Positions 43,471-45,452 of a DNA stretch of 64,000 nucleotides are shown piece by piece. Source of the DNA: Candidatus Acididesulfobacter guangdongensis. GTDB lineage: Bacteria > SZUA-79 > Acidulodesulfobacterales > Acidulodesulfobacteraceae. The stretch is taken from assembly GCA_004195045.1 (NCBI GenBank), contig SGBC01000001.1, positions 1 to 64,000 of the forward strand, given 5' to 3'. Under the pieces are notes generated by a model that saw only the letters and a list, made by a program, of their open reading frames with translations, had not been told where the DNA came from and searched no databases. The first letter of the stretch is position 1, and the number at the start of each line of letters is the position of its first letter. Position numbers and translations under genes: made by a program.

Positions 43471-43695
43471 TTATTTTTTTACGTAAACGGTGTATTCCGG
43501 TTCGGCTATGTCGTAGGAAAGAAATTCGTGACCTGTCTTTTTACAGTAGCTTTTTAAATCTTCGATTATGCCCTCGTCTGACGCCACAACTTTTAAAACT
43601 GAGCCGTCCGGAATCTTTTTAAATTCTTCCGCTACTTTCATTATAGGAACCGGACAGCTCAATCCGAATGTATCTAATTCATAATCGTAATTCAT
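43471..43695 (-). CDS. tusA: TusA-family sulfur-carrier protein
   Basis: A 74-residue protein with the CPVPIM motif (Cys14) and the SDEGIIEDLKSYCKKTGH segment of TusA. It carries persulfide sulfur between desulfurases, thiolation enzymes and dissimilatory sulfur enzymes. Third gene after iscS and iscU, so it may accept sulfur from that unusual IscS or act in sulfur oxidation or reduction. Confidence 0.9.
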   Translation of the reverse strand: MNYDYELDTFGLSCPVPIMKVAEEFKKIPDGSVLKVVASDEGIIEDLKSYCKKTGHEFLSYDIAEPEYTVYVKK

Positions 43696-43768: not shown

Positions 43769-44215
43769 TTAAGCGTGCTCCAACTCGTCTAAGCCCTCAT
43801 GTTCATGGTCGCAGGTCTCAACCTTGGCTATATGACCTTTACCGGCTTTTACGGATCTATAATCTTCTATTGCAAGATGAAGCGCATCAGCGGCTAAATT
43901 AGAACAGTGCATCTTTACTGGAGGCAGCCCGTCAAGAGCCTCCGCAACGGCAGCATTTGATATTTTTTCGGCTTCTTCAAGCGTCTTGCCTTTAACCAAC
44001 TCCGTAACCATAGAACTGGTCGCAACGGCTGCGCCGCAACCGAATGTTTTAAATTTTACGTCTTCAATCTTATCGTCTTTTACTTTAATATAAATTTTCA
44101 TTATATCGCCGCAAGTAGGATTTCCTAACTCTCCTATTCCGTCGGCGTCCGTTATTTCACCTACATTTCTTGGATGCTGAAAGTGATCCATTACTTTTTC
44201 AGAATATACAGGCAT
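43769..44215 (-). CDS. iscU: Iron-sulfur scaffold IscU/NifU N-type
   Basis: A 148-residue scaffold with all three cluster cysteines (GNPTCGD, FGCGAAVA, MHCSNLA) and the conserved Asp after the first. It builds [2Fe-2S] and [4Fe-4S] clusters from iron and persulfide. The C-terminal His/Asp/Glu-rich tail (ETCDHEHEGLDELEHA) is an addition. It follows iscS by 43 nt. The intact scaffold contrasts with the altered desulfurase. Confidence 0.93.
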   Translation of the reverse strand: MPVYSEKVMDHFQHPRNVGEITDADGIGELGNPTCGDIMKIYIKVKDDKIEDVKFKTFGCGAAVATSSMVTELVKGKTLEEAEKISNAAVAEALDGLPPVKMHCSNLAADALHLAIEDYRSVKAGKGHIAKVETCDHEHEGLDELEHA

Positions 44216-44258: not shown

Positions 44259-45452
44259 TTATTTACCGCTTTTAGCTTCTTCATACAGCGGCGACATTTC
44301 CCTTAACTTCTGAACTATGGGAGGCAGCTGTTCCGTGAAATACTTGGCATCTTCCATGTTATTGTCTTCTCCCAGCGATATAAGCAGCGAGCCCTGCGCC
44401 AATGCGGCATCGACACCTATTGCGGTCAATACATGAGAAGATTTAAGGATTTTAGAAGTGCAGGCTGAACCGCTCGCGACCATTATCCCGCTGTTGTTGA
44501 GCCACATGAGAATAGATTCGCCTTCTATATATTTTATGACAAAATTTATATTATTCGGAAGCCTGTTCGTCCTGCTGCCGTTAAGATACACTTCGTCAAT
44601 AGACGATAAAACGGTATCTATAATGTGTTTCTGAATAGGCAAAAGATGTTCTCGTCTTTTATTTAATTCATTTTTTGCAAGCTCGCACGCTGCGCCTGCT
44701 CCGGCTATTGCCGCCACATTTTCAGTTCCCGCCCGTCTTCCGAATTCCTGCACCCCGCCGTCGATCAGAGGCATTATGCGGGTTCCTTTTTTCAGATAAA
44801 ACAAACCCGCTCCTTTAGGACCGTAAAACCTGTGAGGAGCTGCCGAAAGCATATCCACGCCGAGTTCTTTAACATCGGTTTCTATAAATCCGCACGAAGT
44901 ATTGGCATCCGTATGCATATATGCTCCATTGCCAAACCCGTGAACTATCTCAGATATAGCTTTTATGTTTTGAATAGTGCCAATTTCGTTAGAAGCGTGC
45001 GTTATACTGACTAATATCGTATCTTTCCTCATTGCGTTTTTAACGTCGTCTGGATTTACAAAACCGTCCTTGTCAACCGGAAGAGCCGTAAACTCAAATC
45101 CGAGCTTTGTGAGCGATTTAACAGCGTTTAAGACGCTAAAATGTTCTATACCGGAAACAATTATATGTTTGCCTTGGGCCATACGCGCAAAAGCAGCGCC
45201 TTTTATAGCAAGATTGTTAGATTCCGAACCGCTTGAAGTAAATATAACCTCGTTAGAAGCGCAGTTAAATAACGAAGCAGCCTGAACGCGGGCTTTATCT
45301 AACGCCTCTCTGGGCGCATCGCCGAGATTATGTATGCTCTGCACATTTCCGTACTCCTCTATAAAAAAAGGCTCCATAGCCGACTTTACTTCCGGCCTCA
45401 TTTTTGTTGCAGCAAAATGGTCAAAATTTATAGTTTTCAATTTTACCTCCAT
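44259..45452 (-). CDS. iscS: IscS/NifS-like desulfurase lacking the PLP-binding lysine
   Basis: A 397-residue class V aminotransferase-fold protein. It keeps His104 (IEHFSV), Asp182 and the persulfide loop ASGSACTS with Cys331. The Schiff-base lysine of the SGHK motif is Arg208 (APHRFYGPKG), and the conserved Gln three residues after the Asp is Thr185. The DNA supports Arg (AGG). Without the lysine, normal PLP chemistry should fail. Archaeoglobus fulgidus IscS similarly lacks this lysine, so the protein may serve as a scaffold partner or use sulfide. First gene of iscS-iscU-tusA. Confidence 0.88.
   Translation of the reverse strand: MEVKLKTINFDHFAATKMRPEVKSAMEPFFIEEYGNVQSIHNLGDAPREALDKARVQAASLFNCASNEVIFTSSGSESNNLAIKGAAFARMAQGKHIIVSGIEHFSVLNAVKSLTKLGFEFTALPVDKDGFVNPDDVKNAMRKDTILVSITHASNEIGTIQNIKAISEIVHGFGNGAYMHTDANTSCGFIETDVKELGVDMLSAAPHRFYGPKGAGLFYLKKGTRIMPLIDGGVQEFGRRAGTENVAAIAGAGAACELAKNELNKRREHLLPIQKHIIDTVLSSIDEVYLNGSRTNRLPNNINFVIKYIEGESILMWLNNSGIMVASGSACTSKILKSSHVLTAIGVDAALAQGSLLISLGEDNNMEDAKYFTEQLPPIVQKLREMSPLYEEAKSGK

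Follow-up and report, generated by a model that had tools for sequence, protein, structure and literature searches.

The window, a stretch of 64,000 nucleotides, encodes on its minus strand (44259..45452) an IscS/NifS-type protein of 397 amino acids with an ATG start, in which the lysine that binds PLP in cysteine desulfurases is lost together with the glutamine and the arginine that serve cofactor and substrate, and in which the loop cysteine, Cys331, is kept. Its gene adjoins the only IscU gene of the genome. Normal use of cysteine by this protein is almost certainly impossible, a conclusion that its residues support well, and we consider it probable that the protein is a pseudo-desulfurase, a platform for IscU with Cys331 loaded from a donor other than cysteine and/or acting as a cluster ligand.

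Structure and conservation of the lysine-less gene

The gene was assigned from its open reading frame, profiles, fold and aligned residues. The protein matches the aminotransferase class V/IscS fold family (PF00266, E 2.6e-66) and misses the NCBIfam equivalog cut-offs for both NifS (433.8 vs 530.75 bits) and IscS (345.4 vs 643.2). NFS1, A. fulgidus IscS and E. coli IscS all match its AlphaFold model (pLDDT 76.8) at a TM of about 0.85; this model, made from a ten-sequence alignment and with pLDDT <50 in the loop 329-340, supports the fold only, not the geometry of loop or pocket.

Residue positions were taken from an alignment with members of the same bacterial family (the window family), the canonical paralogue of the genome and A. 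fulgidus IscS. Codon 208 (44829..44831, minus strand) reads CCT on the plus strand and AGG on the coding strand, which places arginine at the position of the PLP lysine (E. coli Lys206, A. fulgidus Asp199), and codon 185 (44898..44900, minus strand) places threonine at the position of the PLP-binding glutamine (E. coli Gln183). The loop cysteine at codon 331 (44460..44462, minus strand; E. coli Cys328, A. fulgidus Cys321) is present in 73/73 lysine-less sequences, and the histidine that IscS stacks against the PLP ring (codon 104, 45141..45143, minus strand) is kept and invariant. The original prediction, which had named Arg208, Thr185, an intact persulfide Cys331 loop and the absence of this lysine from A. 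fulgidus IscS, is thus borne out by the alignment and by the PDB sequence 4EB5 (Asp199). A third loss had escaped it: leucine stands at codon 357 (44382..44384, minus strand) in place of the arginine that holds the carboxylate of cysteine (E. coli Arg354), as seen in the alignment and the column ranking. The observation on Arg208 is right, and it is more general and deeper than was first stated.

The AGG codon is real. All 33 window-family sequences (among which some loci are duplicates from one and the same assembly, reached in two ways) have arginine at 208 and none has lysine, against the refuting outcome that the original prediction had named. Of the 27 family genes compared, 16 use AGA and 11 use AGG at this codon, and dN/dS stands at about 0.02-0.05 among the family pairs with measurable dS, indicating strong purifying selection. 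An error of sequencing, reading or assembly was excluded on these three grounds.

Coupled loss of cofactor- and substrate-binding residues

In E. coli IscS, PLP is held by Lys206 as a Schiff base, by Asp180 and Gln183, and by His104 stacking on it, and Arg354 binds the alpha-carboxylate of cysteine; activity is lost in mutants at His104, Asp180, Gln183, Lys206 and Cys328, with K206A and Q183E among the inactive ones, and R354K stays active (PMC9978102). Among the 159 proteins with a readable site, the Arg354 position holds arginine in 85 of 86 lysine-bearing proteins and in 0 of 73 lysine-less ones, and Cys, His104 and Asp180 (E. coli numbering; Asp182 in the window protein) are invariant in both sets. 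In a ranking of alignment columns by their power to tell the two sets apart, made without one protein (L130), the columns of Lys206 and Arg354 had no residue in common between the sets; Thr76, Ser203 and Thr15, which vary little or not at all in canonical IscS, were also changed or relaxed in the lysine-less proteins. A single conserved substitute for the lysine was rejected, because nine different residues (R, V, Q, S, T, H, G, N, D) occupy its position. The positions that contact TusA in E. coli (45, 49, 52, 55) were uninformative, with Arg55 invariant in all IscS and Trp45 rare.

Measured against the residues that define a type I cysteine desulfurase, the window protein has Arg208 for the Schiff-base lysine and Leu357 and Thr185 for Arg354 and Gln183, and it has the loop cysteine, the stacking histidine and the aspartate at N1 (Cys331, His104, Asp182). 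We therefore do not class it, as judged from sequence, as a cysteine desulfurase. Loss of desulfurase function is strongly supported, since lysine, glutamine and substrate arginine are gone together and K206A and Q183E are inactive in E. coli. Invariant Cys331, His104 and Asp182 beside a lost lysine and arginine are what decay of the catalytic site, and not of the loop that handles sulfur or clusters, would leave behind; the site for catalysis has decayed, with the loop cysteine retained.

The protein left out of the ranking (L130:3004, genome G126) is the single lysine-bearing exception without Arg354. Its Cys loop is altered (PGSTCTF) and TusA lies nearby; it clusters with the lysine-less proteins in the tree and is possibly an intermediate or a protein of different function.

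IscU, SUF and the canonical paralogue

Downstream of the lysine-less gene, on the same strand, lie the genes of the IscU scaffold (43769..44215; 148 amino acids, identified by profile, with Cys35, Asp37, Cys60, His103 and Cys104 intact) and of the sulfur carrier TusA (43471..43695; 74 amino acids, identified from its open reading frame and by Pfam, with an intact CPxP cysteine motif), just as the original prediction had described them, intact and next door. The order APRT - cytochrome c - IscS* - IscU - TusA, where IscS* is the lysine-less IscS, is kept in the family loci with long enough flanks.

The genome (2,217,123 bases in 5 contigs) matches Ca. Acididesulfobacter AP2, which belongs to Ca. 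Acidulodesulfobacterales and comes from acid mine drainage (PMC6776010). It contains exactly one IscU (PF01592), the one adjoining the lysine-less gene, and a profile search for SufB/D (PF01458; control positive in 14/14) found none, so that SUF was rejected as an alternative assembly route; the search for assembly routes covered IscU and SufB/D. SufB/D was also absent from 17/17 window-family genomes checked, and 16 of the 17 have a single IscU; the exception (G001) has two partial IscU hits, apparently pieces of a single gene broken across contigs. Outside the window family, the sole IscU adjoins a lysine-less gene in a further 11 of the sampled genomes (G084, G227, G211, G347, G070, G215, G289, G152, G304, G115, G276).

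The original prediction had raised the matter of another complete desulfurase in the genome, and one is present: a canonical lysine-bearing IscS with the SGHK motif (G000:C1:175835-176995), 36% identical to the window protein. It lies with an Rrf2 regulator, cysE, mtaB and a divergent mnmA (L185:4118-10362), and because it adjoins these genes, its cluster suggests a role in cysteine and tRNA sulfur rather than with IscU.

Occurrence and phylogeny of lysine-less IscS

A profile of lysine-less proteins was run over 386 genomes, mostly one to three per bacterial family, and the best-scoring loci were retrieved and read, the counts being lower bounds. Lysine-less copies were found outside the window family in at least 24 genomes of at least 19 families, and in addition in Elusimicrobia/Endomicrobia. 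A. fulgidus IscS, whose query sequence is identical to 4EB5 over 382 residues, shares the signature with Asp199, Ala for the glutamine and Leu for Arg354. In Endomicrobia and other Elusimicrobia (L015-L020, L022, L024), a canonical (SGHK) and a lysine-less (SSV) IscS lie close together upstream of iscU, and no TusA was found nearby at the Elusimicrobia lysine-less loci examined.

Trees were built from 118 proteins and, with the trait columns masked, from 68 proteins. The window protein falls among the main lysine-less group, and A. fulgidus IscS falls elsewhere in the tree with its sister L184. We consider it likely, not proven, that the lysine was lost more than once, because the lysine changes three or four times on the best trees, two of these changes being forced by well-supported branches, yet holding all lysine-less proteins as one clade, at a cost of 25.7 log-likelihood units, is not rejected (p-AU 0.12-0.14).

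A second lysine-less set (L131, L153, L154, L159, L162) has Ser or Asn at 206, mostly Thr at 354, and mostly adjoins IscU; it stands apart from the main group, beside the lysine-bearing PDB protein 9WEP.

Linkage to TusA and DsrE and the sulfur source

TusA is near the lysine-less gene in 30/32 window-family copies. Outside the window family and the Elusimicrobia, TusA lies within 2.6 kb of 11/24 lysine-less genes and a DsrE-type gene lies near 10/24, compared with 0/79 canonical IscS genes near either (Fisher p ~1e-8, a value that treats related genes as independent). We regard this linkage as a strong pattern that falls short of a proven correlation, because only one or two independent contrasts exist. 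The identities of TusA, DrsE_2 and DsrE at these loci were confirmed by Pfam. In L184, which the tree places as sister to A. fulgidus IscS, the order is tusA-dsrE-iscS-iscU.

At four loci (L088, L096, L097, L128) the lysine-less gene lies beside DsrE2 and TusA with no IscU within 2.6 kb, forming a sulfur-carrier cassette in which the lysine-less protein may act apart from IscU.

In the crystal complex of E. coli IscS with TusA, Cys328 lies about 4 Å from the TusA cysteine, and TusA and IscU compete for IscS (PMC2854127; PMC11302665). Since TusA can dock with its cysteine this close to Cys328, transfer in the reverse direction, from TusA to the lysine-less IscS, is plausible by analogy.

The original prediction had suggested that sulfur comes from sulfide or that the protein is only a scaffold. 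Its premise, the loss of desulfurase function, stands with lysine, glutamine and substrate arginine gone, and so does its analogy with A. fulgidus. Sulfide from sulfate reduction was rejected as the obvious source, because dsrA was not found in the genome by a profile search (none of the control genomes, which hold no sulfate reducers, reached the cut-off). The absence of dsrA agrees with the description of dsr genes in AP1, AP3 and AP4 only (PMC6776010). AP2 is reported to have soxA, soxB, soxY and soxZ and to be without soxCD (PMC6776010); such a set would yield sulfane sulfur rather than sulfide, and we infer a link to the lysine-less IscS on this ground. The linkage to TusA and DsrE favours a third option beyond the original two, in which Cys331 is loaded from a persulfide carrier.

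Proposed function and alternatives

The protein has the fold of a type I cysteine desulfurase, has lost the residues that bind and cleave cysteine, and has kept the mobile-loop cysteine and the IscU partner. We propose that it is a pseudo-desulfurase that most likely assembles with IscU into an IscS2-IscU2 platform like the A. fulgidus one. Sulfur that does not derive from cysteine would reach Cys331, most likely as a persulfide on the neighbouring TusA (on DsrE-type carriers in other lineages), or as sulfide. Cys331 would then pass it to IscU, and/or would ligate the nascent cluster until IscU departs. The lysine-bearing IscS of the genome probably desulfurates cysteine to supply tRNA thiolation, and TusA may be loaded by it as well. 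We infer the complex with IscU, the donor and the role of Cys331 with differing confidence: that the protein works as a platform for IscU is very likely, and TusA as the donor is a serious candidate that falls a little short of an even chance. Several points tell against the proposal. Sulfur passes from IscS to TusA in E. coli and its reverse direction here is an assumption; IscU and TusA compete for IscS in that organism; the Elusimicrobia copies are without TusA and often have a canonical IscS as neighbour, a possible donor in that lineage; and the retained His104 and Asp180 allow room for PLP without a Schiff base.

A pure scaffold and cluster ligand on the A. fulgidus model, with Cys331 as fourth ligand on the IscU cluster, free sulfide as the sulfur source and TusA as a bystander, would agree with the crystal of A. 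fulgidus IscS-IscU, where the cluster is held by three IscU cysteines and Cys321 of IscS, and with the identical residue losses in that protein, which is without desulfurase activity; however, the recurrence of the TusA/DsrE linkage in several lysine-less lineages, the lack of dsrA in the window genome and the four loci that adjoin DsrE/TusA and not IscU make it unlikely. We think it quite unlikely that the lysine-less IscS cooperates with a canonical IscS, in a mixed dimer or as a docking platform, and receives cysteine sulfur from it directly or via TusA: a lysine-bearing paralogue is present and two IscS genes are adjacent in several Elusimicrobia, but the paralogue in the window genome is unlinked, shares only 36% identity and lies beside cysE, mtaB and mnmA. 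Very improbable is a slow or altered PLP enzyme that holds PLP non-covalently and acts on cysteine or another sulfur compound. The invariance of the His104 and Asp180 equivalents, the PLP drawn in 4EB5, and the E. coli K206A protein, which keeps some PLP and carries out a partial reaction at a very low rate (PMC9978102), would fit such an enzyme, but the carboxylate-binding arginine and the glutamine are lost too and none of the nine residues found at position 208 is conserved between lineages. A decaying or spurious gene, or an error of sequencing or assembly, has practically no probability left and is already refuted by Arg208 in 33/33 sequences, the dN/dS of about 0.02-0.05, the conserved operon and the neighbouring only IscU.

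In textbook accounts, the sulfur for Fe-S assembly is cysteine sulfur released by a PLP desulfurase. A. fulgidus IscS is a structural model with a cluster bound, yet inactive; the sole IscU as neighbour in a family free of SufB/D and the recurrence in about 20 families near carriers argue for a working design, and the carrier linkage names a testable donor. Moreover, the annotation of such lysine-less genes as 'cysteine desulfurase' is probably wrong. We suggest, as a reading somewhat less likely than not, that lysine-less IscS is a widespread bacterial entry for sulfur not derived from cysteine, from TusA/DsrE2 to the loop cysteine to IscU; if so, it would be the only IscU- or SUF-type route to Fe-S clusters where a genome has one IscU and lacks SUF, and would bypass cysteine desulfuration. 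Lysine-less IscS was previously known from two archaea; its spread in bacteria, the coupled loss of the arginine and the linkage to carriers appear to be new, as the open-access literature searched yielded no description of bacterial members or of the TusA/DsrE link, and no biochemistry of any bacterial member.

Comparison with known systems

A. fulgidus IscS (4EB5, 4EB7, 4HVK; 4R5F is its D199K mutant) is like the window protein without the PLP lysine, the glutamine and the Arg354 equivalent, keeps Cys, His104 and Asp180, was crystallised with IscU and shares about 45% identity with the window protein by structural alignment; the window protein, too, has an IscU partner encoded alongside, the genome's only copy. 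The A. fulgidus protein differs in being archaeal and in having Asp, not Arg, at the lysine position, and in the best tree it sits on another branch with lysine-bearing relatives between, although one origin is not rejected (p-AU 0.12-0.14). It ligates a [2Fe-2S] cluster via Cys321 and, according to PMC7585200 and PMC8617193, has no desulfurase activity; its sulfur source and physiological relevance are called open (PMC8617193). By analogy, the window protein would work like A. fulgidus IscS.

M. acetivorans IscS1 is lysine-less like the window protein by its description, lacking the catalytic lysine and having its own IscU, and has been considered possibly non-functional or of different function; unlike the window genome, that of M. 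acetivorans also holds a functional IscS2/IscU2 and SufBC (PMC7585200). E. coli IscS and human NFS1 have the fold of the window protein (1P3W, TMq 0.86; NFS1, 0.85-0.88), the loop cysteine and an IscU partner, but they differ in having Lys206, Gln183 and Arg354 and in freeing sulfur from cysteine. The MIS minimal system (MisS-MisU of Garcia et al., as cited in PMC12442378) is a minimal pair of IscS and IscU homologues without other isc genes, and the lysine-less IscS with its single IscU and no SufB/D likewise forms an IscS/IscU pair in a minimal context.
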